A stretch of DNA of 54,703 bases, from contig CAMHJX010000022.1 of the NCBI GenBank assembly GCA_946185535.1, positions 1-54,703 on the forward strand. Direction: 5' to 3'. The notes beneath the pieces were generated by a model, which worked only from the letters and a program-made list of their open reading frames with translations, searched no databases and had not been told where the DNA came from. Shown here piece by piece: positions 2,186-45,760 of this stretch. Made by a program: the position numbers and the translations under genes. The stretch comes from an uncultured Bacteroidales bacterium. Lineage in GTDB: Bacteria > Bacteroidota > Bacteroidia > Bacteroidales > F082. Positions within the stretch are counted from its first letter, which is position 1. Every line of letters begins with the position of its first letter.

Positions 2186-3061
2186 ATGAAGAAATTAGCT
2201 TTAGCACTTGTGTGCTTCGCCAGCGTTGCTTTCTTTGCAAGCTGCACTAAGACAATCGAACATCCGGAACCTTCAATCGCCATTAAGACGGGTGAGTATT
2301 TCATCACGGGTAGCGTCGATCAACCCACAGTCATTGATTACGACGATGAAAACGCTATCAATTTCAAGTACGGTTTCCATGTTGAAGCCAACTCTGAAAC
2401 CAAGAAAGAACTGAAGAACATGGTGATTACCATGGATGTGATCTCTTATAATGAAGATGGTCAAGAGAATGAAGTTTATTACGACACCATCGACCTTGCT
2501 GGAAAAACTTCCTATGATTTCGAAGATTTTCTCTTCGTACAAGAAAGAGAGATTTACACCGCTATGGAAGGCACAATCAAGGCTGTTGTGACTGACGTTG
2601 ACAACCAAACCAACACCGCCACCGTCGCTTTCAAATGCGAATATGAATATACTCCTGAACCACTGATTGGCCGCACCATTGAATGGATTCGCAGAGGAAA
2701 CAATGTCCTGAACGCTGATGAAATGGCAGAATACGGTTTGATGTGGGATATCACATTCAAGGCCCCGTTTGCCACTATCAAACCCTTGAATAATGATGTT
2801 GTCATGTACTTGTGCAACGGTGACGACTTTGATGACATTGTTAACGTGGACGAAAAGTACACCTATTTCAGCAACCTTGCCGAAAATGCCACCCCAGTTG
2901 AATCCTATCGCAAAATTGATGCTAATTTAGAACATGCTGACTACAACGACATGCTGGCCATCGTCTATGGTGAGAAGTATTCCCTGATCCGCATCAACCA
3001 CGCTGACGTTGAGACTGGATCTTTTGGCACTCAAATCACCATCACCGGTGATGCCAAATAA
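2186..3061 (+). CDS. lipoprotein of unknown function, first of a tandem pair
   Basis: A 291-residue exported lipoprotein. The signal peptide MKKLALALVCFASVAFFASC ends in a lipobox with Cys20 as the lipidation site. Residues about 35-155 look like an all-beta domain rich in Asp, Glu and Thr. The last 130 residues, from the motif GRTIEWIR near residue 165, are rich in acidic pairs (GDDFDDI) and aromatics and end in QITITGDAK. The next gene (3197-4039) carries nearly the same C-terminal domain on a divergent N-terminus, so the two are tandem duplicates. I do not recognise the family. The C-terminal domain looks like a small beta structure, perhaps a binding module. Each copy has its own -7 promoter element and terminator, so they are separate transcripts. 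Most likely outer-membrane or surface located, by inference. Confidence 0.85.
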   Translation: MKKLALALVCFASVAFFASCTKTIEHPEPSIAIKTGEYFITGSVDQPTVIDYDDENAINFKYGFHVEANSETKKELKNMVITMDVISYNEDGQENEVYYDTIDLAGKTSYDFEDFLFVQEREIYTAMEGTIKAVVTDVDNQTNTATVAFKCEYEYTPEPLIGRTIEWIRRGNNVLNADEMAEYGLMWDITFKAPFATIKPLNNDVVMYLCNGDDFDDIVNVDEKYTYFSNLAENATPVESYRKIDANLEHADYNDMLAIVYGEKYSLIRINHADVETGSFGTQITITGDAK

Positions 3062-3086
3062 TGACGCTACAATTATTGCGGAATAT

Positions 3087-3118
3087 AATAGGACGGTTTA
3101 ACACCGTCCTATTTTTTT
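3087..3118 (+). terminator. intrinsic terminator after the first tandem lipoprotein
   Basis: AATAGGACGGT (3087-3097) pairs perfectly with ACCGTCCTATT (3103-3113) across a 5-base loop, and a T run follows. The T run overlaps the -33 element of the next promoter. Confidence 0.9.
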
Positions 3119-3148
3119 GTTCCATTTCCAATGAATTTGCTATTTTTG
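3116..3148 (+). promoter_or_regulatory. promoter of the second tandem lipoprotein
   Basis: TTTG at 3116-3119, a 21-base spacer, then TATTTTTG at 3141-3148: a full Bacteroidota -33/-7 pair, 48 bases before the ATG. Confidence 0.7.
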
Positions 3149-3196
3149 CAAATTATAACTTATTTGTGATATAACAATAACTAAAACACAAAAAAG

Positions 3197-4039
3197 ATGA
3201 AAAAGCCCGCTGTTATATTCTTCATGTTATGCCTTACCAGCATCGCTTTATTAGCTGGCTGCAAGAAAGGAGTCATGCCCGATGAGCCCGAAACCCCAGT
3301 CACGCCTGACAACACGAAACCATCTTTGAGCATAATCAACCAAGAAGGATACATAGCCAATGGCGACACACTCCAATGTGGCACTAGCTACAATTTTGGT
3401 TTCATTGCCCTTTCCAATTCCCAAACAAACGCCGAACTCTCTTCGTTAATCATCCTAATTGATGACGAAGAAAAAACCAACCTTGAATTGAGCGACACTG
3501 AATACATTTATAACGACAGCATTTCTTTCAACAATGACTACCCCATCGACAGAGTCACTATCACAGCTATTTTGAGCGATATTGCTGGAAATAAGGTCTC
3601 CAAATCCCTACAAGTTCATCTCCAAAAAACCAATCCTGAAACGCTGGTTGGCCGCACGATTGAATGGATTCGCAAGGGACAAACTGTTGAGAGCGCAGAA
3701 GAGATGGCTCAATATGGTCTTCAGTGGTCTGGCAGTTACAAGGATATCATGGCCACCATCGAGCCCTTGGATGATGATGTAATTCTTTACTTGTGCGACG
3801 GTGATGATTTTGATGACATCATTTACTGGAGCGACAAGTACGCCTATTTCAACGAACTGGCTGAAACCGCCGATCCTATCGAAAAGTATCGTAACATCAC
3901 CACCAATAACGATTCCAGCTACAACGATATGCTGGCCGTTGTCTATGGCGATGACCTCTTCCTGATCCACATCACCTATGCCGACATCAAAATCGGTAAC
4001 TATGGCACCCAAATCACCATCACTGGTGAAACCAAATAA
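3197..4039 (+). CDS. lipoprotein of unknown function, second of a tandem pair
   Basis: A 280-residue lipoprotein whose signal peptide ends LLAGC, with Cys22 as the predicted lipidation site. A Pro/Glu-rich linker (PDEPETPVTPDN) follows, then an N-terminal beta-rich domain with little identity to that of the preceding gene. The final 130 residues repeat the paralogous domain: GRTIEWIRKG, then YLCDGDDFDDI, and finally the end QITITGETK. The strong C-terminal against weak N-terminal similarity suggests duplication followed by divergence or replacement of the outward-facing half. No enzyme motif is visible. It has its own promoter, and a terminator shared with the convergent GH2 gene follows. Confidence 0.85.
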   Translation: MKKPAVIFFMLCLTSIALLAGCKKGVMPDEPETPVTPDNTKPSLSIINQEGYIANGDTLQCGTSYNFGFIALSNSQTNAELSSLIILIDDEEKTNLELSDTEYIYNDSISFNNDYPIDRVTITAILSDIAGNKVSKSLQVHLQKTNPETLVGRTIEWIRKGQTVESAEEMAQYGLQWSGSYKDIMATIEPLDDDVILYLCDGDDFDDIIYWSDKYAYFNELAETADPIEKYRNITTNNDSSYNDMLAVVYGDDLFLIHITYADIKIGNYGTQITITGETK

Positions 4040-11278: not shown

Positions 11279-13258
<1,980 letters not shown>

Positions 13259-13288
13259 CTAAAATTTAGCTGTTTTCAATTAAAGGTG

Positions 13289-13322
13289 CAAAGATACGGA
13301 AAATTTCGGCACGAAACACAAA
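13289..13322 (-). promoter_or_regulatory. gyrB promoter
   Basis: Minus-strand TATCTTTG (13296 to 13289) with TTTG (13322 to 13319) 22 bases upstream. The leader would be about 25 bases. Confidence 0.6.
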
Positions 13323-13622
13323 AAAGTTGAGAATTTTGTTTTTTGTCCAAAACGGCTCTACGGGGCTAAAAATAGGCAAATTTCAAAAACGGCCTGTTCC
13401 CTCGCGCACGCGGGAAAGAAAAAGCCCCTTCGACGAGAAGAGGCTTTTCGTGAATTCTAAGAGGCTTTTAGGCAATGATGAATGTGGGGCACCTGTTTTG
13501 GTATCGGCTAAAGCCGAGAAATCTTAAGAAAATCTTAAAAAATCCATCAAAATATTGATTCTTAATGATTTTGAAAGATTTTAATATTGATTTTTGAAAG
13601 AGTTCTTGCAAAGCAATTCCAT
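13323..13622. other. intergenic region between gyrB and a T9SS gene, with one candidate minus-strand terminator
   Basis: No gene is supported here. On the minus strand AAAAGCC-TCTTC (13448 to 13437) pairs with the arm at 13431-13420, and the T-rich tract beyond it suits termination of the T9SS gene transcribed from 14894. CGGCT-AA-AGCCG near 13506 is a short hairpin. From about 13520 to 13615 the sequence is AT-rich with repeated ATATTGATT and GATTTT words. Open frames on the plus strand have no protein-like character. Confidence 0.5.
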
Positions 13623-14894
13623 TTATTCCACGACAACCTTTTGGACTGAACCTTCGTCAGATTTGACGAAGTAGATGCCGGTTCTGAGTGAGATGGAGTG
13701 CCTTGCATTCTCAGAGTGGCTTCTGGCGATGACTTGGCCGAGTGTGTTGAACACAGTCAGGTCAGTCGTTCCTTCGACAGTGAACTCACCGTTCGTAGGA
13801 TTCGGATAGAGTTTGAAGGTTTTGTTTTGATGTTCGCCAATACCGACGATGCCCTCTTCGCTACGGTTAGAGAGCAATCTACTTTCACTCTTGCCATTTT
13901 CAACGCCTTGGACAACGACGTGTCCCTCGTTGAACTGGTTCTCTGAACAGGTGTAGCTAGTGACACTAGCACCGACGAAGTCGATGACTGTCAGGTCACC
14001 ATCCTTGGCACCTGGGTGCCATTCGCAGATGTTGTAGCCGAGCAAGTCATATCCGGTTGGAATGTTCCAGTTGACCTCGATGGTATTGTTGATACCTGTC
14101 AAATAGGCCATGTGGATGGTCTCTTTTGGATAGCTCACAATGGGGCATTCTGTGCCATCTATGGCGACAGCTGTGAGTGTGTAAGTACGGGATGCGGAAC
14201 CACTACCGATATTGTCAGTGAACTGACCGTCAGAGTAGGGGGCTGTGCCGACCTGCATACCGTCACGCTTCACGACGACATGGTCGATGTACTGGGCTTG
14301 TGCTACGGTAGTGGGCCAGGTAATCAAGTTCAAGTTGCTCTCAAGGTCACAGGTAGCTAAGTCGATTTCGACATTGTCTTGTACGATGAAGGTCTGTACG
14401 GATGTAGCACACATATCGGAGACACCACAGGTGTAAGTTCCTGGTTCGGTAACTTCGATGGTCGATGTGGTAGTGCCGGTGTTCCAAAGGTAAGAGTAGG
14501 AACCACTTGGTGCTTCAAGCGTAATGGCTTCTTGCTGACGTTTCCATAGCTGTGAAGTGGCTTCATCTGGGACATTGGGTTCGATGAAGAATACATCGAA
14601 GCCAAAACTGTAGCCACAGCCATAGAACAGACAATCCCTGTATTCTGTCATTACAGCTTTGTCGAATATGACAAAACCCACATTATCAATCCATTCACCA
14701 TTTATTTGCCATGTGCAACTATTACAGCCTTCAGGTGCGTAAAGAATAACTCTATCATACTTGTTTTCGCAAGCACGAATTATTTTGCTTGGCATGTTCC
14801 ACAATTGTGGGATTGTGATGATGGTGTCGTTTTGTGCTTGGACTTTCATTAGGCAGAAAGTCATACAAATGATGGTAAGAAAAAATTTTTTCAT
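13623..14894 (-). CDS. secreted protein with T9SS type A sorting domain
   Basis: A 423-residue protein with signal peptide MKKFFLTIICMTFCLMKVQA. The middle carries beta-sandwich modules: one with SYSYLWNTGTTTSTIEVTEP, which looks like the PKD/Ig-like domain of adhesins, and later fibronectin-like stretches (VVVKRDGMQVGTAPYSDG, then PTGYDLLGYNICEW). The C-terminus is a type IX sorting signal (FKLYPNPTNGEF, then LRTGIYFV, then KVVVE), so it should be exported, crossed through the outer membrane by the T9SS and anchored or released. It has several Cys pairs and no catalytic motif. It lies directly downstream, on the same strand, of the UGA=Gly reading frame; the 88 bases between them are extremely AT-rich. 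A possible ribosome site, AAAGGAAA, precedes the ATG. Confidence 0.9.
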   Translation of the reverse strand: MKKFFLTIICMTFCLMKVQAQNDTIITIPQLWNMPSKIIRACENKYDRVILYAPEGCNSCTWQINGEWIDNVGFVIFDKAVMTEYRDCLFYGCGYSFGFDVFFIEPNVPDEATSQLWKRQQEAITLEAPSGSYSYLWNTGTTTSTIEVTEPGTYTCGVSDMCATSVQTFIVQDNVEIDLATCDLESNLNLITWPTTVAQAQYIDHVVVKRDGMQVGTAPYSDGQFTDNIGSGSASRTYTLTAVAIDGTECPIVSYPKETIHMAYLTGINNTIEVNWNIPTGYDLLGYNICEWHPGAKDGDLTVIDFVGASVTSYTCSENQFNEGHVVVQGVENGKSESRLLSNRSEEGIVGIGEHQNKTFKLYPNPTNGEFTVEGTTDLTVFNTLGQVIARSHSENARHSISLRTGIYFVKSDEGSVQKVVVE

Positions 14895-14909
14895 TTTTTG
14901 TTTCCTTTC

Positions 14910-14993
14910 TTTTATTTTTGATTATTATTATGTTTACATATTATTTTTTATAATCATATAATTTCTTATTTCAAGTCTGTTTTTATTTTTGAT
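14910..14993. repeat. 13-bp direct repeat at the left edge of the anomalous segment
   Basis: TTTTATTTTTGAT occurs at 14910-14922 and again at 14981-14993. The second copy covers the TAA stop of the UGA=Gly frame; the first lies in the leader of the normal T9SS gene. The 58 bases between are almost pure A/T. It may be the microhomology at which foreign and native DNA (or two assembled contigs) join, or simply low complexity. Confidence 0.5.
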
Positions 14994-17616
14994 CTTCTTC
15001 AAGATTAGCAGGAACTGGAATTGGGTACACTGTTCCATTTGGTTTTGGTAATGCACAAGATCAATCATATGTCTCAAATCATAAGTCATTTATCAAATCA
15101 GTACCTTTTAATCCTCTCATTATATCATACCACACATAGTCAACTTTGGTGCTGTTTGGCTTTACACCATCCGCTATACATATAACTAAACTTCATTTAT
15201 AAGAGGCCTTTCTTTCAAGGTACATCATTGTTCAAACATTTGTTGCATCACAGGTTAGTCCTATTGGAAGACAGTTACTACCAACTCTAAGTGAACCATT
15301 TACATCAAGTGTCGCGTATGGATTGTCCGTATTTACCCCAACCATCAATGATTTATATGCATCTTCTTTATCAACATGTATTGGTGTTGGATCAACATTA
15401 TGTCGGAGATGTCATACATTGACAGTTACATTTTCATTTAAACTACATTTCTCTGGGTCATTTAAATCATTTCATCGTACTATGCCCATTCATTCGGTAG
15501 CTGTGCCTCATACGGTTGTATTTCATTTTGAATTATTTGTTTCTTGACAGCTGTAAACATCTTGTAGTGTTGTACCTCGGGTAATACCTCATGAATTTCA
15601 TCATCATGATCAAGGTTCATTATCATCGTATGATCCAGTTCTTTGTGTGAAGTAAACAAATGCTCATCATCTTGTACCAACAGCAAGTTCGTTTTCTCAT
15701 AAGATTTCGTAACTACGATTGATATCTCCTGAAGAATCTCAATCAGCATACATATAAATATAGTTACCTGAACGTCAAGCAAGTATTGGTCAATTTACGC
15801 TAAGTCATCTGACTCTTTTTGAAGTGGCGAGGTCTGTCCTATAAAAATAAAGACCTCAATACATCTTGATACCTGTTTGATTAACAACAAATTCTGGTAT
15901 GTTTTTGTACATGCTTGGTGTATTTTCTGGATTTGCTTTGAATGTTCCTGGTTCTACGAGGACGTTTTGATTTTTTGCTGGTTTGATTGTGTTTGTACTA
16001 GAAATTTCTGTCCATAGACTGTCTCATCATCAAGAAGGTTCTGATGCATTGCATTTTATTTCACATCATGTTCGCTCTATTTCATATGGTTTGTTATAAT
16101 TATTATTATTATTAAGTGACTCATTTATATATTGCAAAAGGGCTTGCATGTTGTAAAAACTGTTGTTTTGCCAATTCCCATCATTCAATTCATCAACTTT
16201 ATAACTTGAGCACATGTATCTACACCGCCCAAATGGGTTTCACTCTACATCTGTTGATCATCATTCACATTGACCTTGGCAGGTTGGTTCTGCTTGGTCA
16301 CAAATAATAGAGCAATCTCAATCATCATAAACTACGTTGGTAAATCGAGTCACATTGTCCTTTATTCTTAGGTAGTATCTAATACAATTTGTATCATCTG
16401 TTTGATCAGTACAGTTTAGATTATTACTATACTCAGTATGTGCTGCATTACATACATCACTATCATCTCAGTCACACTTCCATGTCAAGCTTAATGAAGG
16501 TTGTCTAACACATTTGTATTTACATCGTTGGTCTGGACTTCATACAATATTTAGACTTTCTCATTCTGTTCAATTTGCATTACAAACAATTTGATTATTG
16601 TTATCAAATATGCAATATTTGTTGTTTACAAAGTTTTCTGGTTGTCATAGTGCTACAGTATTACAATTTATTGTATCAACTCATTGTACACAAATTTCTT
16701 GTTCAGCTCCAGGTGTGATTTTGATGTTTGATGTCTCGTCAGGTCTCCAACCAGGATTACCTGCACCGTCAGTTTTCCAAACAAGACCGGTTTGGTTTTG
16801 TGTTGGGCCAATTACATAACCACTTTGATCTAATGCGTTTGGTTTTCGGTTCTGTCTTCGAAATTCTTCGAAGATTGTTCTGACGATATTGTCTATATTT
16901 GATGGTGTTCCTCAATCCGCTCAGTCTCTTATTTGAAAAGTTGCGGCGATTGTATCTTCATCTGTATATATTTCTACAGTAGTGATTCAATTCTCATATC
17001 AAGTATTTATATGGTGTATTCAAGTTCAGCTTGCTCAAGTATTTCCTTGAGGTCAGGTGATTGTTTGGATAATATTTTGTATTGTTATAGTGGTATCATC
17101 GCTTAATGTAAATATGATATCGTTTCCATTAACTTCTCATGAAACTATGTAAGCTCAAGTAGCTCATTGTGCTCAAGTATCTCATTGAGGTCATGTGCTA
17201 GAAATTTGTGATATAACGTCTGCCAATGTTATGGTAGAATCATCACTCAACCCAAACACGATATCGCTTCAGCTAACATATCATGTGACAACATGTGCTC
17301 AAGTGTTTCATTGAGGTCATTGGTTACCTTGGGTTCATGTATATAATACATCTACATCTCTACAATTTTCTCCATTTTCGTCACAGATTTTGTGAACGTT
17401 TAGTTGTCCACCACTCGTGTTGATTTGGAGTTTGAAATTTGAAAGCTCCATACCGGTTTGAGCATCTGGAGAGGCTTTTATAATCAATTTAGTCAAGTTT
17501 AGTGCTCCAAATGGATTTCGGTTTTCCACAAAGAAAGTGTATGCGTTTACCATAGAAAATCCGAGTGTAGCAACGGCTAATAGAGATAAAAGAACTTTTG
17601 TTCCACGGGTTGTCAT
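14983..17616 (-). CDS. 877-residue collagen-like surface/fibre protein readable only with UGA = glycine (code 25)
   Basis: With the standard code this frame ends after 93 codons. With UGA as Gly it runs from ATG 17616 to TAA 14983 with about 56 in-frame UGA and no UAA or UAG. UGA and GGN occupy the same periodic places in collagen-like tracts, for example TGPQGDTGAQGATGA, at residues about 94-106, 142-154 and 188-199. TGG is used separately for Trp, so UGA is Gly and not Trp. N-terminus: MTTRGTKVLLSLLAVATLGF, a signal peptide or membrane anchor. After the tracts comes a repeated module (SGxxxGxDIxFxLSDDxTIT), then a Cys-rich stretch (about 306-540), and a C-terminal part with SLMVGVNTDNPYATLDVNGS (about 756-775) like tail-fibre/adhesin proteins. 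UGA=Gly is known from Absconditabacteria and Gracilibacteria. In a Bacteroidota cell only the first 93 residues could be made. Either a foreign insertion or an assembly chimera. Confidence 0.88.
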
Positions 17617-17957
17617 TGAGGTTTTTGTTAGGAATGCCTTACAACCGCCAACCAAACATGGCTCCGCCCTTTCAGTCACATTCCAAAATTTCAATCCTTT
17701 GCGAAACAATAGTTTACGCAAAACCAGAAATATGACGTTTGGGGGCTTGTCGGATGTTGCAAAGATAGGCATATAATTGAAACACAAAGCATTATGCCGT
17801 CATGAATACGTTGGCGTTTTGTAATAAAATGGTTGTCGGAACGTCAACCGATAATTGTCACTGTTTTCTTGTTTGGAAATATTCTAAATTATCTTAATTG
17901 ATTGATTTTTATATATTTAATATGCATTTTTTCGACTAAAATTCGTATCTTTGCATA
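17617..17957. other. gap between the UGA=Gly gene and the XRE-like gene
   Basis: Besides the minus-strand promoter at 17760-17788, the stretch 17617-17750 is open in frame with the UGA=Gly gene but lies in its presumed leader and shows no recognised domain. The part 17790-17950 is AT-rich without a gene. TATCTTTG on the plus strand (17946-17953) also fits a -7 element and points rightward into the antisense of the XRE-like gene. Confidence 0.45.
17760..17788 (-). promoter_or_regulatory. Bacteroidota-type promoter upstream of the UGA=Gly gene
   Basis: Minus-strand TTTG (17788 to 17785), a 17-base spacer and TATCTTTG (17767 to 17760). It would start RNA near 17753, about 135 bases before the ATG at 17616. 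It matches the promoters of undoubted Bacteroidota genes here, suggesting that the foreign/native junction lies left of it. Confidence 0.55.
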
Positions 17958-18179
17958 TCAAAAATGCTTCAAGATGTATTCGGTGAAGTAATGGAAAAAG
18001 TCGTGGTGGAGGATGAGGCTGATCTTCAGCAGTTGGTCGGTGCTGAGGTAGTCGTGTGCGAGTTGTCGGCAAAGGTTCTGCCGCGAGCAGCCCATCTGGC
18101 TGGCGAGCCAGGCGATGCTCCGCTGCTGTCGGGCAAGTTCCGCTTTGATGAGGTTTCCAATGTGTGGTGCTTTGTCCAT
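17958..18179 (-). CDS. small XRE-like helix-turn-helix protein
   Basis: A 73-residue DNA-binding protein starting MDKAPHIGNLIKAELARQQR. The helix-turn-helix is RSIAWLASQMGCSRQNLCRQ (about residues 20-39), followed by LSTDQLLKISLILHHDFFHYF. This pattern is recurrent in short Bacteroidota regulators in which the whole protein is a single HTH with an aromatic C-terminal tail. The ATG at 18179 fits the family start. A longer frame in another phase on the same strand (17917-18204) is Pro/His-rich and is a shadow. The region just upstream holds interleaved inverted repeats (18186-18336) that may be its own operator. Targets are unknown; such proteins often sit beside nucleases or mobile genes, here an Rpn-type gene. 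Confidence 0.82.
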   Translation of the reverse strand: MDKAPHIGNLIKAELARQQRSIAWLASQMGCSRQNLCRQLAHDYLSTDQLLKISLILHHDFFHYFTEYILKHF

Positions 18180-18185
18180 AATAAA

Positions 18186-18336
18186 GGCGTGAATCTGTTT
18201 TCATGTCGCTTATATTACCCCTTAGGCTCTGGTAACCTGGTTCAGTATATAAGTGGAAAACAGTTCACGCCATTTGGCATGAACTCTTCGTGACTTATTC
18301 CTACTGAACCTAAATTTTACCAGAATTCAAGGGGTT
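18186..18336. repeat. two interleaved inverted repeats upstream of the XRE-like gene
   Basis: Pair A: GGCGTGAATCTGTTTTC (18186-18202) and GAAAACAGTTCACGCC (18256-18271), one bulged base. Pair B: ACCCCTT, CTGGTAA and GGTTCAGTA (18217-18247) against TACTGAACC, TTACCAG and AAGGGGT (18302-18335), an imperfect repeat of about 31 bases. The arms alternate A, B, A', B', so they cannot form two simple hairpins at once. They may be operator sites, a pseudoknot-forming leader, or ends of decayed insertion elements. Confidence 0.6.
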
Positions 18337-18425
18337 GAGGAACAAGAGCGTAAAGCTCTATGGATTAGTTATGTCAGTCTATTCATTTGTCTTTTCTATA
18401 AACTTCCGTTCTTTATCTTGTTGGT

Positions 18426-19301
18426 TTATAATGATTTCAATTCATTTTCGTTCAGGCCTGTCGTGGCAATAATGACGGCATAGTCCACACCAGCGGCTTT
18501 CAGATTGCGGGCAATGTCGAAGGCTTTCTTCCTTTCGCCTTCTCTCAAGCCCTCTTCCTTGCCCTCTCTCAAACCTTCCTCCTTGCCCTCGCGGAAGTGT
18601 TTCACATTACTATTATTAATGTCGTTGTAATCAAACAAAGACTTTTCATATTGCCTACGCTCGTTGGGTTGCATCTTGTCAATCTCAGCATGGCGGAACA
18701 GCGAGGCGAACACCCTTTCTTGCAAGGCGGCAGGACGTTCCATCAACCTTGAAAGATTGCGCAACACAAACAACCACTTGTCGTACAAGGTCACCAACTC
18801 GTCCTCTTGCTTATTGAATTTCGGCAACTCAATGGTAATGAACGACAATTTGTCGTAGAACACTTCCTTGGTCGCCACGTTCATCAGCTTGGCCTCGTGA
18901 TGCACATCCTCACTGTTTATGTCGAAGATGAAATTAAGGATGCCAATCGTATAGACGGGGTTCAACTTGTAGTCCCAGTCGCCGCGCTTGGCTTGCTCGC
19001 GAATGGGAAAGGTGGAATAATACACCATACGGTCAACGAAATAGTCCTGGTCCACGTTCTGCATTTCCACGATGATGTGATCGCCCTTGTCGGTGGTGCA
19101 ATACACATCGAAGATGGCTCGGCGCGAGTACACCACCTCGTCCAAATGCTCAGAGTTCTGGTAGGTGATGTCTGTGATATGGTGCCTGCCTTCGAAAAGG
19201 GCGTTCAGGAACGAAATCAAGTATTCCTTGTTCAGTTCGCTGCCAAAGATGTACTTGAAACCGAAGTCGGTGTAAGGGCTGATATATCGCTGTCCGTTCA
19301 T
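18426..19301 (-). CDS. Rpn family nuclease / PD-(D/E)xK putative transposase
   Basis: A 291-residue protein of the recombination-promoting nuclease family (transposase_31/PDDEXK type), which cleaves DNA and is often found in many copies in Bacteroidota genomes. It starts MNGQRYISPYTDFGFKYIFG, the typical N-terminus. The active-site pattern is Asp65 (IFDVYC), then Glu79 and Gln81 (VEMQ). The region KLNPVYTIGILNFIFD is also conserved in the family. The C-terminus has tandem copies of REGKEEGL, a short charged coiled-coil repeat that often varies in number between relatives; the underlying DNA is two 24-bp units (18541-18564 and 18565-18588) differing at three positions. It is full length and preceded by a good promoter. 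No terminal inverted repeats frame it, so it is not a complete insertion sequence. Confidence 0.88.
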   Translation of the reverse strand: MNGQRYISPYTDFGFKYIFGSELNKEYLISFLNALFEGRHHITDITYQNSEHLDEVVYSRRAIFDVYCTTDKGDHIIVEMQNVDQDYFVDRMVYYSTFPIREQAKRGDWDYKLNPVYTIGILNFIFDINSEDVHHEAKLMNVATKEVFYDKLSFITIELPKFNKQEDELVTLYDKWLFVLRNLSRLMERPAALQERVFASLFRHAEIDKMQPNERRQYEKSLFDYNDINNSNVKHFREGKEEGLREGKEEGLREGERKKAFDIARNLKAAGVDYAVIIATTGLNENELKSL

Positions 19302-19321
19302 GACATGAGGGTTTTACTTTG

Positions 19322-19350
19322 CAAATATAGTAATTATTTTGAAAAGCAAA
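19322..19350 (-). promoter_or_regulatory. promoter of the Rpn-type gene
   Basis: Minus-strand TTTG (19350 to 19347), a 17-base spacer and TATATTTG (19329 to 19322). Confidence 0.65.
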
Positions 19351-19360
19351 CCATAAAAAA

Positions 19361-21088
19361 CTAGAATTTCAGCTTCACACCTGCGAAGAACTGTATGCCT
19401 GTGACAGGATAATTGTAGAACATCTGGTATTTCTGATGCGCCACATTATCCAACAAAGCAAAAGCCGTAATCTGCTCGTTCACTTTGTAGTCGGCACCAA
19501 TGCTGAGGTCGAAGACATCCTTCAGCTTTTCAGCCTTGAAATTGAAATTCTGCCAATCGACCACACCGTCCCAAACCTTGGCATAGCGTCCGCCTTGGTA
19601 AAGGAAGGTGGTGTTGAAAGACAGCTTGTCATCAAAGTCGTAGGTCACTTTCAGCTTGCCTTCGGTCGTAGGACGGTACCATGCGTATTCTTCAGCGGTA
19701 GGCTTGCAATTGTTGTAGGCAAAGCCCAAATCAGCGGTAAGGCTGTTGCGCATCTTGACGCGGGCATCGGCCATGACAGTCACCGTTTGCGTCTCATCAT
19801 ACACGAGTTCAAAAGTATTCATGATGGGATCATAGCCTTGTGGCACTTCGGTTGGGTCAGGGATATGGTAGACATAGAACGGATCGCCAGCCGTTTGGCG
19901 ATAGCGAACGCCCAAATGTAAATCCACAATCTCCATGATGTTGGTGCGCACGCCTCCCTCAAAACCGAGTTTCACATTCTGAACCAGCAAGGAAGGGCTT
20001 AAGTATGAAGTAACGAAAGGATTATCTTCAACCACATCGCTGAAACGCAACAATTTGCGGCCTCCGTTCAATCCCGCATAAAATTCCAGCTTCTTGTCCA
20101 AGACAAACAAGCTACCGCTCAAATCGGGACGAACAGCCAAGAACTTGTCCGTATCAGCGCCCTTCGTGGTTCCATCCAAACGCACGCCAAGATGCAAGCG
20201 ATAAAACTCTTCACTCATCTCAAAGAAAGGATTGACTTTGAACCAAATACGGTCGACCACAAACAATTTGTCGCCTTGTCCCATGCAATAGTCATACTGG
20301 AATCCCAAGTCAACGCCTACCTTTTGAGGATGGCTCTTGTCGCCCCAGAAATTGTCAGCATAACTAAGGGTATATCCTAAATCCAGATTGTGTTCTCTTC
20401 CAAATAGATAGAAATAGTCCACATGGGCAGCGTGTCCCAATTCACCGACACGGGTCGAAGTGGAAACTAGTCCCAAATGCCCACCCAATTTGTTGTAAGT
20501 GATTCTCGGGGCATAGGCCTCAAGCTGCTCCTTGTTCAGCGAGTCCTCCGCCAGATTGATGCCATAGTAGTGGTACATGTCATTCTTGTAATAGACGCCG
20601 CCATCCACCTGGAAACCGTCGAACTTGCTCGTTGTGACATTGATATCAAAGGCATTGTTCATGTAGCCTGATGGTGCGTAATTCTTGATACCGAGCCACG
20701 AGGAGTTATGCTTGATGCCCACACCGAGACCCAAGGTCTTGGTCTGCATAGAGTTGTGCTTATAGAGGAAGATGGGGGAAATCCTTGAGCCGAAACCTGC
20801 CATGAGGAAATTCTCCGTTGGGGTGACAAGCTTGTCGTTTTTCGATGAGAAAGCCGTCGGAGCGATTTTCTCCAAGTCGAGGGCAAACTTCTGCTTGGCG
20901 TCCTTTGGGGTGACTTCCGTGCTTGGGAAGTTGTAAGTGGGCTGAGGCGTCTCAGGGGTGAGCTGCATCTTGTTCACCTTATTCACTTTAGGACGGTATT
21001 TGCCTTCCACGATGACTTGTTCATCGTGCTGTGCGAAGGCGGAGATGGCCAGGAGGGCCAGGGAGAGGATTATGATATATCTTTTCAT
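19361..21088 (-). CDS. outer-membrane beta-barrel protein, TonB-dependent-receptor-like, without plug
   Basis: A 575-residue outer-membrane protein. The start at ATG 21088 gives the signal peptide MKRYIIILSLALLAISAFAQ; the longer open frame adds 11 residues without signal character. After a short periplasmic segment (EQVIVEGKYRPKVNKVNKMQ) the rest is alternating amphipathic strands with aromatic girdles, ending in QFFAGVKLKF. The terminal Phe is the usual barrel-assembly signal. It resembles the barrel of TonB-dependent receptors but lacks the carboxypeptidase-like and plug domains, so it is probably a passive or accessory channel. It follows the 1019-residue TPR gene by 68 bases on the same strand and may be co-transcribed with it. 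The pair recurs in Bacteroidota as a suspected envelope complex; substrate unknown. Confidence 0.82.
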   Translation of the reverse strand: MKRYIIILSLALLAISAFAQHDEQVIVEGKYRPKVNKVNKMQLTPETPQPTYNFPSTEVTPKDAKQKFALDLEKIAPTAFSSKNDKLVTPTENFLMAGFGSRISPIFLYKHNSMQTKTLGLGVGIKHNSSWLGIKNYAPSGYMNNAFDINVTTSKFDGFQVDGGVYYKNDMYHYYGINLAEDSLNKEQLEAYAPRITYNKLGGHLGLVSTSTRVGELGHAAHVDYFYLFGREHNLDLGYTLSYADNFWGDKSHPQKVGVDLGFQYDYCMGQGDKLFVVDRIWFKVNPFFEMSEEFYRLHLGVRLDGTTKGADTDKFLAVRPDLSGSLFVLDKKLEFYAGLNGGRKLLRFSDVVEDNPFVTSYLSPSLLVQNVKLGFEGGVRTNIMEIVDLHLGVRYRQTAGDPFYVYHIPDPTEVPQGYDPIMNTFELVYDETQTVTVMADARVKMRNSLTADLGFAYNNCKPTAEEYAWYRPTTEGKLKVTYDFDDKLSFNTTFLYQGGRYAKVWDGVVDWQNFNFKAEKLKDVFDLSIGADYKVNEQITAFALLDNVAHQKYQMFYNYPVTGIQFFAGVKLKF

Positions 21089-40255: not shown

Positions 40256-41962
40256 TTATAACTTCACAATTTTCTTCAGCGAGGCGCCTCTATCTGTTTC
40301 GATCATAATGAGGTATATTCCGCTCTCCAAATCGTCGATTTTGCATTGTGACCCATTCACACCAAAGACTTTAACCAACTTGCCATCAATCGAAAAGACC
40401 TTGACATTCGTCATCCCTTCACATTCGATATTCACCACATCCTTTGTAGGATTCGGGTAAATGTTGGCTTTGACGTTGCCTTCATCCAACCCATCATAGG
40501 CCTCCACGGCATCGACAGCGGCCAAGGCGTCCACACGGCCACAACCTGTGAGGTTGCTTTTCGTAGGTGTGAGCTTGACGGAAGTCTCTTCAAGAATGCG
40601 GCAGATGTCGGCTGGCGACAGCTCAGGGTTCTTGCTGAGCATCAAGGCGGCGATGCCTGCCACACAAGGCGTTGCTTGAGAGGTGCCGGTCATCGACTTG
40701 TAGCCCGTGTTGGAGGTGTAGTTCAACGACTTGATGCTTTCGCCTGGAGCGCACACGTCGGGACGGATGAGGCCGATGCCAGGGTTGTAAGCGTAGTCTC
40801 CATACTCGGTGTCCTGCCATGTGCATGGCCCGTTGGCGGTGAAGAACGAGGCTTGGTCGTTGTCGTCCACCGACCCAACCACGATAGCGCTACTCAACTC
40901 GCCAGGATTGGCCATTTGGTCGGGATCCAAATAAGGCGGAGGGCAGCTGCCGGGGATGCGCACGTTCTGGGGAATAGGGTATTGGTCCAGGGCAAAGCCT
41001 TCGTTGCCAGCGCAAATGAAACTCGACACGCCAGCGTCCAAAATGGAAACGCAGGTGCGGCGGAAAAGCTCCCTTTCAGTGACGCTCGGATGCACCAAGC
41101 CCATCGACATGCTGATAATGTCGCAGCCATGCTCCACCGACCATTCCATGCCTTCGGCCAACTTCACCGCGCCGCCTGTTCCGTCGGCATTCACGCTCTT
41201 GATGCACATGATTTGCGCATCGGGGGCCACGCCGGTTTGCGAGCCTGCCGTGCCGTCGCCAGCCACGGTACCAGCACAGTGCGTGCCGTGGCCCATGTCG
41301 TCCATCGGGTCGTCATCGTCGTTGCGCACATCGTAGCCGTGATGTGGAAACGCCTCGCCACCGTCCCAAAGATGGTCGGCCAAGTCCAAATGGTTGTAGT
41401 TGACCCCTGCATCAATGATTGAAACCACGATATCTTTCCCTGTATAGCCCAGTTCCCAAACCTTGTCAGCATTGACTTTCAATATGTTGGGCGTGATTTC
41501 ACGGGTTTCGTTGGCTGATGTTGACTTTTCGATGTCATCAATCCATTTTCGCTCAATGTTGTAGCCAATGTGGGCAATGTCATCGCGCTTGGCCAAAACC
41601 AAGATGGTTTCTTTCGTAGCCGAAAAATAAAGGCTGTTCGACATCCAAAGGGTGCGCGGTGCAGTGACTTCACCTTGTTGCTCCATTTCGGCAAGAGCCA
41701 ATTTCAAGTCGCGTTGCGATACTTCGGTGAAGTGCTTCAGTTCGTCGACGACAAATGCCCTACGCTCGGCGCGAGTGGGCAAAGCCGAGGCGCGTTGGCT
41801 CAACGTGTTCCTATCGCAGCGTGATTTCATCAAAACGGTGATTTCAATCATCTCGCTGTCGGTGCGGCGGTTCATCTCTTCCTGCAAAAGCGGGTCGATG
41901 ACTTGGGCTTGCGCAAACATACAAGCCAAAGCCAACGTAATCATAAAAATGGTTTTCTTCAT
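40256..41962 (-). CDS. secreted S8 (subtilisin-like) serine protease with T9SS sorting domain, copy 1
   Basis: A 568-residue extracellular protease. Signal peptide MKKTIFMITLALACMFAQAQ; propeptide-like region about 25-150; S8 domain about 165-490 with Asp184 (IIDAGVNYNH), His225 (MGHGTHCAGT), oxyanion Asn320 (CAGNEG) and Ser428 (MTGTSQATPCVAG). The end is a type IX sorting domain (ANIYPNPTKDVV, then LESGIYLIMI, then KKIVKL). The triad is complete, so it should be active. Last gene of a five-gene run read from 49509; it starts 5 bases after the stop of the preceding protease gene. It is most like copy 3 (44043-45755), sharing the same spacing of triad residues, so these two are probably the most recent duplicates. 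Confidence 0.94.
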   Translation of the reverse strand: MKKTIFMITLALACMFAQAQVIDPLLQEEMNRRTDSEMIEITVLMKSRCDRNTLSQRASALPTRAERRAFVVDELKHFTEVSQRDLKLALAEMEQQGEVTAPRTLWMSNSLYFSATKETILVLAKRDDIAHIGYNIERKWIDDIEKSTSANETREITPNILKVNADKVWELGYTGKDIVVSIIDAGVNYNHLDLADHLWDGGEAFPHHGYDVRNDDDDPMDDMGHGTHCAGTVAGDGTAGSQTGVAPDAQIMCIKSVNADGTGGAVKLAEGMEWSVEHGCDIISMSMGLVHPSVTERELFRRTCVSILDAGVSSFICAGNEGFALDQYPIPQNVRIPGSCPPPYLDPDQMANPGELSSAIVVGSVDDNDQASFFTANGPCTWQDTEYGDYAYNPGIGLIRPDVCAPGESIKSLNYTSNTGYKSMTGTSQATPCVAGIAALMLSKNPELSPADICRILEETSVKLTPTKSNLTGCGRVDALAAVDAVEAYDGLDEGNVKANIYPNPTKDVVNIECEGMTNVKVFSIDGKLVKVFGVNGSQCKIDDLESGIYLIMIETDRGASLKKIVKL

Positions 41963-41967
41963 GGTTT

Positions 41968-43920
41968 TCAGTATTTCACAATTCTTTGGTTCAATGTTCC
42001 ATTTTCCGTTGCAATCTTCAACTGGTAAATGCCATTGCTCAGCCCGTCAATGCTGCACGTTCCGTTGGCGGTGGCAATTTGCTTGACTAACTTCCCGTCC
42101 ATGGCATAGACGTTGACTTCAGTCATGCCTTCGCACTCTACCGTAAAACCACCTGCACTTGGGTTGGGATACACATTGGCTTGGAGCTTGTTCTCGCCAA
42201 CGCCCACGAATGCCAACGAAACGCATGATTTCTGGGTAGGACATTCCGATGGGGCAACACACAACTCGTGGTCGCCGTCCTCAAGTTCAAGGTCGAAGCG
42301 GGGCTCGACTGTGGAGCCGACTTCTTCGCCATCCACAAAGACGAGGTAGCTCTCGGCATCGCCTTCCCAAGTAAGGGTAACGATGTCGTTCTCAATCGTA
42401 TAGTCGAGGTTGGCGACGGGGCCACAGCCATCCATGGCCAAAATGGCGGCCAAGGCATCAATGCGACCTGAGCCGATGTCATTATTCTTGTAGCCGATAG
42501 GGTTCACGGCAGTGGTTTCAAGGATCTCGTCGATTTGTGCAGGCGTGAGGTCAGGGTTCTTGGAAAGCATCAAGGCGATGGTGCCCGTCACGGCAGGGGC
42601 CGCAAACGAGGTGCCGAGGTCGGCCTTATATCCTTCAATATTGGTCCAGTCCAACGATACCACGTTGCCTCCAGGGGCGCTCACGTCGGGCTTGATGAGG
42701 CCAATTTGCGTGGCATCGCCAGCCACGTATGGGTAGTCGGCGTATTCCGGTATATCGGCCCAAGTAGTCGGCCCGCGCGAAGAGAAGGCGCTGACTTGGT
42801 CGTTGTTCTCCGTCGAGCCAACGCAGATGACGCTGCTCAGCCCACCAGGATTGACAGCCTGATCGGGATGGATCCATGGCGAGGGGCAAGTGCCTGGTGC
42901 GCCAGCGTTGTAAGGTATTGGGAGGAAACTTTGGAACTGGCCCATGTTGCCCGAAGTGGAAACCACCACGATACCTGCTGCCAACATGCTGTCGCAACCT
43001 TCACGCATCATGCGGCGATATTGCACGTCGTCGCCCGACTTGCCCAACGACATATTGAGCACCTGTGCGCCATGTTCCATGGCAAACTGCATCCCTTCGC
43101 AAAGGATAAATTCGTTGCTTTCCACATCCGGCTCGTCAGCGAAGACCTTGACTTCCATCAATGTGGCTCCAGGCGCGGCTCCGGTTTGTGTGCCTGCCGC
43201 TCCTGTGCCACAAATGGTGCCTGCCACGTGTGTGCCGTGGCCCCAAGTGTCCATCGGGTCGTTGTTTTGCTCATACACGTCGTAGCCGTGGTACGGAAAT
43301 TCCTCGCCACCGTCCCACATGCGGCCTTGGAGATCGTGGTGGTTGTAGTTGGCGCCCGTGTCGAGATGGCCTACGACAACGCCTTCGCCCGTATAGCCCA
43401 ATTCCCAAACCTTGTCAGCATTGATGATGAGTATGTTTTGGGCGATGCCGCGTGTGATTTCGTTGGGTTGCACGGCAACATTATTGGTCGTTGGTGGAAG
43501 AACCGTGTTTTCGCAATGATAAATGGTCTTGATGTCGGAGCGTTGTGCCAAGTCGTTGATGGCTTGTGTGTTGGCTTCGCAGCCAATGGCATTGGCAATC
43601 CAAAGCGGACGAATGACATCGACCATGCCATTGCGTTGCATCTCTTCGAGAAGACGGAGCAGGTCGGATTGCGAGGCTTCGGCTTGTTGCTTCAGCGTTT
43701 TTACGACGTATTCGCGTCGCTCCTTGTTGGTGGCGAAGGTGTTGGTTACGGCGAGCAAGTCCATAGCCTTGCTTTGTTCCTGCATAATGATGCCGATGCT
43801 GATTTTCTCGTCGTTGCCGCGTTGGTTCATCTCGCGTTGCAGCGATGGGTCGATGGTGGCTTGGGCTATGCCAATCATGCAAAGGCACAGTGCCAGAAGG
43901 GTTAGGATACTTTTCTTCAT
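41968..43920 (-). CDS. secreted S8 serine protease with T9SS sorting domain, copy 2 (longest)
   Basis: A 650-residue extracellular protease. Signal peptide MKKSILTLLALCLCMIGIAQ; propeptide-like region to about 150; S8 domain with Asp187 (HLDTGANYNH), His228 (WGHGTHVAGT), oxyanion Asn325 (STSGNMG) and Ser438 (LGTSFAAPAVTG). It is about 80 residues longer than its neighbours because an extra module (NLDYTIENDIVTLTWEGDAE, then DGDHELCVAPSECPTQKSCV), fibronectin-like, stands between protease and sorting domain (ANVYPNPSAGGF, then LSNGIYQLKI, then NQRIVKY). It is separated from copy 3 upstream by 122 bases, the only sizeable gap in the run, so an internal promoter or processing site may lie there; no clear -7 element was found. 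Confidence 0.94.
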   Translation of the reverse strand: MKKSILTLLALCLCMIGIAQATIDPSLQREMNQRGNDEKISIGIIMQEQSKAMDLLAVTNTFATNKERREYVVKTLKQQAEASQSDLLRLLEEMQRNGMVDVIRPLWIANAIGCEANTQAINDLAQRSDIKTIYHCENTVLPPTTNNVAVQPNEITRGIAQNILIINADKVWELGYTGEGVVVGHLDTGANYNHHDLQGRMWDGGEEFPYHGYDVYEQNNDPMDTWGHGTHVAGTICGTGAAGTQTGAAPGATLMEVKVFADEPDVESNEFILCEGMQFAMEHGAQVLNMSLGKSGDDVQYRRMMREGCDSMLAAGIVVVSTSGNMGQFQSFLPIPYNAGAPGTCPSPWIHPDQAVNPGGLSSVICVGSTENNDQVSAFSSRGPTTWADIPEYADYPYVAGDATQIGLIKPDVSAPGGNVVSLDWTNIEGYKADLGTSFAAPAVTGTIALMLSKNPDLTPAQIDEILETTAVNPIGYKNNDIGSGRIDALAAILAMDGCGPVANLDYTIENDIVTLTWEGDAESYLVFVDGEEVGSTVEPRFDLELEDGDHELCVAPSECPTQKSCVSLAFVGVGENKLQANVYPNPSAGGFTVECEGMTEVNVYAMDGKLVKQIATANGTCSIDGLSNGIYQLKIATENGTLNQRIVKY

Positions 43921-44042
43921 AATAGATTTGAATTTAAGTCTAACTTATTTGGTGCTGGAATTGGCGGAAAATAACGTGAAACAAAAGAAAATGGGGCATT
44001 TCAACATGAAACTCTCAATTCGACGTCGGGAGTTTTGGCCAA

Positions 44043-45755
44043 CTACAGTTTCATCATCCTCTTCGTCACGATTCCGCCGTCCGCCATGACCTTCACCACA
44101 TAAACGCCGCTTTCCAAGCCGCTGATTTGGCATTGCGAGCCGGTGGTGGGCTGGCTTTTCACCAACTTGCCGTCCACGGAATAGACTTCGACGTGTCTCA
44201 TGCCTTCGCAACGGATCGTGAAAACGTCGGCACTGGGGTTGGGATAAATGGCGGCTTTGACGTCGTTCTCCGCAAGGCCGTCGTAAGGCTGCACGGCCTC
44301 GATGGCGGCCAAGGCATCCACGCGGCCCACGCCGGTGAGGTTGCTCTTGTGCTCGGTGAGTTTGACGGAGGTCTCTTCCAGGATGCGACAGATCTCAGCA
44401 GGGGTCAGCTCGGGGTTCTTCTGAAGCATCAGGGCGATGATGCCTGCCACACAGGGCGTCGCCATCGAGGTGCCGTCCATGTTGGTGTAACCGTCGTTGG
44501 TGAGATAGTTGAGCGACTTGATGGCCACTCCAGGACCGCTCACATCGGGACGGATGAGGCCGATGCCGGGGTTGTAGGGATAGTCGCCAAACTCGGAGTC
44601 TTGCCATGTGACGGGACCCTCGCAGGTGAAATAGGCCGCAACGTCGTTATAGTCGACGGCACCCACGGCAATCACGCAGGTCAGGCCGCCAGGGTTCTCC
44701 TGTTGGTCGGGGTCGAGATAAGGTGGAGGGCAGCTGGCAGGCACGCGCACGTTGTCGGGCACTGGGGCATAACCCCATTGCTGCATGTGGCCCTCGTTGC
44801 CGGCACAGACAGCCGCCACAATGCCCGCATCGAGAACGGACTCACACGTGCGACGCAGCAGCTCTTTGTCGGGCATTTCGGCGAGACTCATGCCCAACGA
44901 CATGCTGATGAGGTCGCAGCCGTGCTCCACCGACCATTCCATGCCTCTCGAAATGTTGACCGCACCGCCAAAGCCCGTTGAGTCAATGCTTTTGACGCAC
45001 ATCAGCGTGGCTTCGGGGGCCACACCCGTCAGCGAGCCTGCCGTGCCGTCGCCCAATACGGTGCCGGCGCAGTGTGTGCCGTGATCGAGGTCGTCCATGG
45101 GGTCGAGGTCGCCGTTCACGATGTCGATGCCATGAAGCGGGAACTCCTCACCGCCGTCCCAGAGGTGGTCGGCCACGTCCAAATGGTTGTAGTTGACGCC
45201 CGAATCGACGACGGAAACCAAAACGCCTTCGCCTCGATAGCCCAATTCCCACACCTTGTCGGCATTGACCATCAGCACATTTTGCGTGGTTTCGCGGGTG
45301 GCTTCTGCCACCTTGCACCGTTCGGTCTCGGGAATCAAGTTTTGCTTGTGGCTGAAGGCAATCGTCTTAATGTCAGGCCGTTGCGCAAGGTCTTGAATGG
45401 CGGCTTTGGTGGCCGTGAAGTAAAGCGCGTTGGCCGTCCAAATCGACTGGGCCGACGTGGTCAGGCCGCGACGCTCCATTTCTGAAAGCGTTTGCTTTAG
45501 GTCGTATTGCGACGCCTCGGTGAAGGCTTTCAATTCGTTGATTACAAAAGCCTTGCGTTCTGCTTTGGTAGCAAAGAAATCGGCTTGGCGACACAGCTGT
45601 GTGCGGTCGTATTGCGCTTTCATCAAGACGAAAACCTCAATTTTCTCGTCTTCCGCGCGGCGGTTCATTTCCTCGCTCAGCCTTGGGTCGATGGTTTGGG
45701 CTTGAGCAAAAAGGCTTGCTAATGCCAATGTGATGATTAAAAAGATCTTTTTCAT
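44043..45755 (-). CDS. secreted S8 serine protease with T9SS sorting domain, copy 3
   Basis: A 570-residue extracellular protease. Signal peptide MKKIFLIITLALASLFAQAQ; propeptide-like region to about 150; S8 domain with Asp184 (VVDSGVNYNH), His225 (LDHGTHCAGT), oxyanion Asn320 (CAGNEG) and Ser430 (MDGTSMATPCVAG). Sorting domain AAIYPNPSADVF, then LESGVYVVKV, then KRMMKL at the C-terminus. It is close to copy 1 through the whole length, including CPPPYLDPDQ before the serine. It begins 5 bases after the stop of copy 4. The intact triad and signals point to an active, surface-delivered enzyme. Specificity cannot be read from sequence, but the duplicates differ mostly around the substrate-cleft loops. 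Confidence 0.94.
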   Translation of the reverse strand: MKKIFLIITLALASLFAQAQTIDPRLSEEMNRRAEDEKIEVFVLMKAQYDRTQLCRQADFFATKAERKAFVINELKAFTEASQYDLKQTLSEMERRGLTTSAQSIWTANALYFTATKAAIQDLAQRPDIKTIAFSHKQNLIPETERCKVAEATRETTQNVLMVNADKVWELGYRGEGVLVSVVDSGVNYNHLDVADHLWDGGEEFPLHGIDIVNGDLDPMDDLDHGTHCAGTVLGDGTAGSLTGVAPEATLMCVKSIDSTGFGGAVNISRGMEWSVEHGCDLISMSLGMSLAEMPDKELLRRTCESVLDAGIVAAVCAGNEGHMQQWGYAPVPDNVRVPASCPPPYLDPDQQENPGGLTCVIAVGAVDYNDVAAYFTCEGPVTWQDSEFGDYPYNPGIGLIRPDVSGPGVAIKSLNYLTNDGYTNMDGTSMATPCVAGIIALMLQKNPELTPAEICRILEETSVKLTEHKSNLTGVGRVDALAAIEAVQPYDGLAENDVKAAIYPNPSADVFTIRCEGMRHVEVYSVDGKLVKSQPTTGSQCQISGLESGVYVVKVMADGGIVTKRMMKL

Positions 45756-45760
45756 GGTTC

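Follow-up and report, generated by a model that had tools for sequence, protein, structure and literature searches.

A UGA-glycine gene recurrently joined to T9SS-family genes in standard-code Bacteroidales suggests gene transfer across a genetic-code barrier

A changed genetic code is often taken to mean that an organism is genetically isolated. The code 25 genes of Absconditabacteria (SR1) and Gracilibacteria read UGA as glycine. PMC8629427 reports that UGA = glycine is common to Gracilibacteria, that Absconditabacteria combine it with CGA and CGG as tryptophan and that CGG means tryptophan in some Gracilibacteria as well. The same source describes Chloroflexi assemblies contaminated by Absconditabacteria contigs, with in-frame TGA in a limited part of the assembly. 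PMC10746230 covers code-25 phages of SR1 and phages that possibly infect both SR1/Gracilibacteria and standard-code bacteria, i.e. genetic traffic between the two kinds of bacteria; the shared phages avoid in-frame TGA. For river mats PMC8406219 gives moderate support, from coverage correlations, for an association between Absconditabacteria and Bacteroidetes. One-sided, homology-facilitated illegitimate recombination, with one near-constant and one variable joint per insertion, is described in PMC3240628.

We analysed a stretch of 54,703 nucleotides (hereafter the window), which is contig C22 of the Bacteroidales genome G000 (3.67 Mb, 86 contigs, 93% complete, 0.55% contaminated). It contains a recoded gene that resembles code 25 genes: in the recoded segments studied here TGA is the commonest glycine codon, GC is low, TGG is kept, and CGG and CGA possibly mean tryptophan. 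The chromosome around it, however, is that of a standard-code member of the Bacteroidota which has RF2 and in which we found no tRNA to match. Unlike in the Chloroflexi case, there is a physical joint between recoded and host genes, and at six of the seven loci the adjoining gene comes from one and the same family. Unlike the shared phages, it is a TGA-rich surface gene with a signal-peptide-like start and no phage genome. The loci show one near-constant and one variable joint, a form that homology-facilitated illegitimate recombination would give; here the donor would be of another code, the insertion recurs at one gene family and the process is proposed from the anatomy only. The features are collected in Table 1.

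Table 1. Recoded loci and features of the window with position, strand and evidence
Feature	Position	Strand	Evidence
Seven recoded loci	G000:C22 (window), G022:C81, G038:C25, G115:C125, G095:C316, G095:C365, G018 (C33 + C92)
gyrB, standard-code host gene, far side of T9SS gene	11279..13255	-	annotation search
Standard-code secreted protein, 423 aa, Por_Secre_tail (T9SS sorting domain), family that flanks the recoded genes	13623..14894	-	domain search, paralogs
AT-rich spacer, recoded stop to T9SS start	14895..14982	-	GC 0.14 including stop codon
Recoded gene, 877 codons, 56 TGA (= Gly), stop TAA	14983..17616	-	translation, chance test, relatives
Collagen-like tract 3, codons 188-199	17020..17055	-	translation
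Collagen-like tract 2, codons 142-154	17155..17193	-	translation
Collagen-like tract 1, codons 94-108	17293..17337	-	translation; Pfam Collagen E 0.08, below cut-off
First in-frame TGA, codon 94, predicted host stop	17335..17337	-	translation
Signal-peptide-like start, codons 1-25	17542..17616	-	judged by eye; G095:C316 N-terminus alike
X element, 39 nt upstream of recoded ATG	17656..17681	-	comparison of loci
Small helix-turn-helix-like (HTH) ORF	17958..18179	-	name given by eye, Pfam without a hit; precedes X at several other loci
PD-(D/E)XK nuclease family transposase (PF12784)	18426..19301	-	Pfam

The original prediction, made from the letters of the window, had described one minus-strand frame from 17616 to a TAA at 14983 with about 56 UGA and neither UAA nor UAG. 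This is exact: translation with table 25 gave a single frame with zero TAA or TAG before the final TAA. In 2000 first-order Markov sequences with the length and dinucleotide composition of the real gene the longest TAA/TAG-free frame reached 450 codons (99th percentile 274) versus the 877 observed. As the first in-frame TGA is codon 94, a standard-code host should make 93 residues only, the same limit that had been predicted. A comparison of the GC content with that of the flanks had also been proposed: we observed ∼0.35 across 14.5–17.5 kb, which is below the 0.41–0.48 of the adjoining 1-kb windows, and 0.38–0.60 in the remainder of the contig. In both full-length recoded genes the first 93 codons are poor in TGA, with 0 of 7 glycines in the window (17338–17616) and 1 of 6 in G095:C316 (L121 1257–1535) encoded in this way. 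Beyond these codons TGA is the commonest glycine codon.

The host keeps TGA as a stop. We picked 25 long ORFs by hand from the table-11 list; the stop is TAA in 15 of them, TGA in 8 and TAG in 2. In the host genome prfB gave a match above the cut-off. We detected no UCA anticodon among the 36 tRNA genes found in this 93% complete genome, all typed by ARAGORN. The glycine anticodons seen were TCC and CCC; GCC was not seen either. Because the genome is incomplete and this glycine tRNA went unseen too, the missing UGA-reading tRNA counts as support and not as proof.

Across nine recoded segments we counted 285 TGA and 209 GGN codons. To infer the meaning of TGA we masked it in the alignments of relatives and kept only positions with similar flanks. 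For the 81 remaining positions glycine scored 145 and the next residue, serine, 39; GGA and GGT, masked and filtered likewise, also came out as glycine, with 36 of 56 sense codons right in the control and TGG miscalled as arginine. The unfiltered inference suffered from noise, its control recovering 31 of 57 sense codons, and placed serine (61) above glycine (−31), which speaks against the transfer of an SR1-type gene that we propose below. In the raw pair counts glycine was the commonest residue opposite TGA (66), followed by threonine (47) and serine (40). The predicted reading of UGA as glycine is supported by the filtered alignment, whereas the unfiltered version called serine.

Without the filter CGA and CGG were found opposite tryptophan in 9 pairs (6 distinct codons) and opposite arginine in 2. 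With the filter CGG was read as tryptophan (5 positions), CGA as asparagine (17 positions) and the two pooled as tyrosine, in the same control that miscalled TGG. This pattern may point towards Absconditabacteria, as a hint only. The statement that TGG still encodes tryptophan holds in so far as TGG is in use (6 codons in the window gene); it may be incomplete, as CGA and CGG possibly encode tryptophan too. The same counts bear on the identity of the donor. It may have been a member of the Gracilibacteria or of an undescribed lineage with UGA = glycine, which we consider unlikely. The shared meaning of UGA described in PMC8629427 would fit such a donor, and the 9 tryptophan pairs versus 2 arginine pairs speak against it. 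This last point is weakened by the filtered counts, in which CGA is not tryptophan, and by those Gracilibacteria that also use CGG for tryptophan.

The protein had been described as coherent. Its three collagen-like tracts and, judged by eye, its signal-like start are present, but the Pfam Collagen match stayed below the threshold. The protein of G095:C316 is 64% identical to that of the window over query residues 1–98. Searches of Pfam, PHROGs and PDB sequences with the recoded protein returned no usable family; weak PHROG matches covered the collagen tracts, one of them to a tail fibre family (best E 2.2e-4). An AlphaFold model of the 877-residue protein (six sequences) was discarded with a mean pLDDT of 35.2 and a pTM of 0.26. 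The fibre matches, the collagen-like architecture and the existence of code-25 phages of SR1 (PMC10746230) would all be compatible with a code-25 phage or another mobile element as the donor in place of an SR1 chromosome. We give this origin only a small probability. A signal-peptide-like start argues against it, the neighbours are gyrB, a T9SS protein and PDDEXK_2 and not phage structural genes, and no relative was found in viral contigs (three scans), 50,697 phage records or plasmids by searches that may be weak for a TGA-rich gene.

In the window PDDEXK_2, the HTH-like ORF, X, the recoded gene and the T9SS gene follow each other in this order on one strand. We take the PF12784 nuclease to be Rpn-like. 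In the spacer we noted a promoter-like pair that matches at 10 of 12 positions (shuffle P 0.056) and the sequence GAAAGGA, which resembles a Shine-Dalgarno motif; no Rfam gathering score was reached over 13000–19500. Elsewhere in the window there is a series of T9SS-secreted proteins at 40256–47491 with at least three subtilases (40256–41962, 41968–43920 and 45761–47491), and at 2186–4039 two ORFs of 291 and 280 aa with a GC of 0.38–0.43 and no Pfam match at E 1e-5.

TGA-bearing homologues occur at seven loci in six genomes. Five of these genomes (G000, G022, G095, G018 and G115) belong to the host genus and were found among 99 genomes of that genus with two queries that hit 4 genomes each. 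The sixth, G038, represents another family of the same order. Among 60 genomes of relatives internal-TGA homologues were present in G000, G022 and G038. With the first query the sample of the order (393 genomes) gave TGA-bearing matches only in G000 and G038 and matches without TGA in 11 other genomes, the sample of the phylum (395 genomes) gave one only in G000 and matches without TGA in 16 others, and the family of G038 gave one in 1 of 8 genomes. The second query was run within the genus only, and copies with a different C-terminus could escape beyond it. A rule-based scan of 577 kb, comprising most of the fetched loci and partly overlapping, returned 7 frames, all at known recoded loci and two of them from the same gene. 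The rule asked for at least 150 codons without TAA/TAG, TGA at 3% of codons or more, GC below 0.42 and less than 50% under table-11 frames; the recoded frames of G115, G095:C365 and G018:C92 failed it. A pattern scan of genome contigs gave 62 matches and confirmed only two Bacteroidales MAGs (G022 and G038), the back-translated patterns being unlikely to use TGA for glycine. In the open literature, as distinct from subscription papers and preprints, we found no earlier report of code-25 genes in Bacteroidota chromosomes. A rumen habitat of these Bacteroidales is suggested by record titles for G022 and G038 and by kinship for the others.

The seven loci show that the joining was repeated: the 3' joint at the T9SS leader is nearly constant, the 5' joints vary, and the code-25 frames are mostly intact. 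A gene of the T9SS family, which uses the standard code and is multi-copy in several genomes, lies directly downstream of the recoded gene in six of the seven loci, and ∼90–120 AT-rich bases separate the recoded stop from it in six loci. The exception is G095:C365, which contains a two-N gap and in which other DNA, and no T9SS gene, lies between the recoded part and the end of the contig. For G018, C33 holds the left part and C92 the right end, with the recoded C-terminus at the contig end; we infer that both belong to one gene. G095 and G018 have a common joint of recoded gene, spacer and T9SS gene that is 90% identical over 338 bases. In the spacers the promoter matches reached a shuffle P of 0.004 in G095 and G018, which are mutual homologues, and of ∼0.06 in the window, the second G022 spacer and G038; among the eight spacers tested those of the first G022 ORF, G115 and G095:C365 were not above chance. 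As donor-type promoters are unconvincing in most spacers, we make no claim that the T9SS gene is transcribed from a promoter of the donor. Compared with G018, 12 bases are missing from the T9SS gene of G095:C316 (L121 ∼3150–3166), among them the start codon.

At the other end, only the genes of the window and of G095:C316 are full-length from an ATG. The copies in G115, G018, G038 and G095:C365 are 5'-truncated, as is the first of two tandem recoded ORFs in G022:C81. In the second G022 ORF (L010 3279–5495) ∼65 T9SS codons are fused in frame to a recoded body without a start of its own. This fusion is flanked by the other recoded ORF upstream and by another T9SS gene downstream. Four features go beyond the original prediction, namely the T9SS gene as the target, the module of HTH ORF and X, the copies truncated at their 5' ends and this fusion of T9SS and recoded parts.

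The original prediction had left a choice between gene movement from a recoded bacterium and a chimeric contig. An assembly or binning chimera, in which SR1 reads were joined to Bacteroidales contigs, has some features in its favour: the genomes of G022 and G038 are MAGs, the GC of the recoded part differs, G095:C365 has its two-N gap and G018 is split over two contigs. Furthermore, T9SS genes are repeats that break contigs; C7 and C37 of G022 (L050 and L053) both start at residue 204 of T9SS-family genes, which suggests that a repeated C-terminal part interrupts the assembly. Nevertheless we regard a chimera as very improbable, because the arrangement recurs in seven loci of six genomes and the copy in G038 lies 30 kb inside a contig of 330,736 bp. 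The left flanks are homologous between species, and the joint shared by G095 and G018 likewise speaks against it. This recurrence, the position beside one family in six of seven loci and the native-like left flanks favour movement of the gene.

In all seven recoded loci the left flanks match T9SS-paralog loci without a recoded gene. An empty paralogous site, G095:C183, consists of an Rpn remnant, an HTH ORF, X, 68 nt and the T9SS gene. We searched eight genomes for X with up to 3 mismatches and detected 8 sites in 6 genomes, 5 at recoded loci, 2 at unrecoded T9SS loci and 1 elsewhere (G082), with no site in G106 and G038. In G095:C316 X is recovered only with 4 mismatches. X and the recoded gene are almost contiguous in G018 and lie 39 nt apart in the window, ∼0.7 kb in G095:C365 and ∼1.6 kb in G022. 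With regard to a transposon or integron cassette, X is single at each locus and never occurs as an inverted pair, and the ends of the insert differ among loci. Site-specific insertion at X was considered: X marks the locus, yet the 5' joint lies at a variable distance from it, and X is therefore not established as an attachment site. Between G018 and G115, 586 of 652 left-flank bases are identical; this match stops with the final base of X, and the two recoded genes are ∼22% alike. Inspection by eye showed that the stretch from X to the recoded gene contains short, GC-rich palindromic repeats in G115, G095 and G022 (L071, L121 and L010).

In a tree of 43 T9SS rows the six copies linked to recoded genes appear in four places among unlinked paralogs, with the bootstrap not fully settled. 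Hence either the joining recurred or a unit moved. The T9SS sister pairs, window with G038 and G095 with G018, are also the closest pairs of recoded genes. This coincidence may reflect inheritance as a unit, a later replacement of the recoded body by fresh DNA from a donor, or encounters of related donors with related recipients; it is not what random independent insertions predict.

We also studied the integrity of the frames. By similarity the frame stays consistent to the stop in five loci (window, G022, G038, G115 and G095:C316). It changes at the two-N gap in G095:C365, and in G018:C33 (L172 1–65, minus strand) the 17 codons next to the contig end include two stops at a place where G095 is open; they may reflect decay, divergence or an assembly edge. 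Across 3,880 recoded codons the number of TAA/TAG is 0, which is partly true by construction since the segments had been picked as open frames. Neutral change over these codons is expected to add 4.45 TAA/TAG per 1% divergence, so the intact copies are unlikely to have resided there neutrally for long. The dN/dS values were 0.46 for window and G038 (319 codons) and 0.42 for G095 and G018 (141 codons). They indicate constraint at some point in the history of the gene, most simply in the donor. Next to the joint that G095 and G018 share, dN (0.066) exceeds dS (0.041) over the final 40 codons, which speaks against constraint in the new host.

These results bear on another reading, that the recoded and the T9SS gene are inherited as a unit under selection in Bacteroidales, with UGA translated through under some condition. 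The coinciding sister pairs, both dN/dS values, the five consistent frames and the in-frame fusion to the T9SS signal region in G022 are compatible with it. We consider it improbable, as most copies lack their 5' part, two stops interrupt the frame in G018:C33, which lowers the odds slightly, dN exceeds dS in the last 40 codons next to the joint, and constraint on the donor side before transfer explains the same dN/dS. In addition TGA is a stop for a host that has prfB and, in a 93% complete MAG, no UGA-reading tRNA among the 36 found. If such a two-code unit were exchanged and selected among rumen Bacteroidales, its UGA frame might sometimes be decoded or the unit might shuttle back to SR1 cells. 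We attach little probability to this; if true, the unit would be an exchange locus between epibiont and host across the code barrier.

The explanation that we consider probable is the recurrent transfer of an Absconditabacteria (SR1)-type collagen-like surface-fibre gene with UGA = glycine into standard-code rumen Bacteroidales, with joining on the T9SS side and mostly as recent passenger DNA. SR1 DNA from a co-resident cell would be taken up by the Bacteroidales cell. One side may recombine by homology, either with the T9SS leader or with a resident recoded 3' end and its spacer, and the other side may join illegitimately, as in homology-facilitated illegitimate recombination. Once a recoded 3' end lies beside the T9SS gene, it would offer homology to the next SR1 fragment. 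To judge from the signal-like start, the collagen-like tracts and the fibre-like C-terminus the protein is probably a surface fibre of SR1; in the Bacteroidales host it is predicted to be unreadable past codon 93 and would be mostly a recent passenger. Several observations stand against this explanation besides the sister pairs and the unfiltered call of serine. G095:C365 has no 3' T9SS gene, G038 has no X and G095:C316 has X only in a form with 4 mismatches; donor-type promoters are unconvincing in most spacers; and there was no Absconditabacteria homologue among the 62 matches of the genome-contig scan and no relative in the viral, phage and plasmid searches, all of which may be weak for a TGA-rich gene.

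The loci suggest that genes cross the genetic-code barrier more than once. Code-25 genes have apparently made their way into a second phylum on several occasions, in most cases next to members of one gene family, so that the traffic from CPR epibionts to possible hosts can be studied directly. These recoded loci are invisible to standard annotation. They may also serve as a signal for host prediction: the Bacteroidales genus in which SR1-type genes lie next to a gene for a secreted protein would be a candidate partner for SR1 in the rumen.
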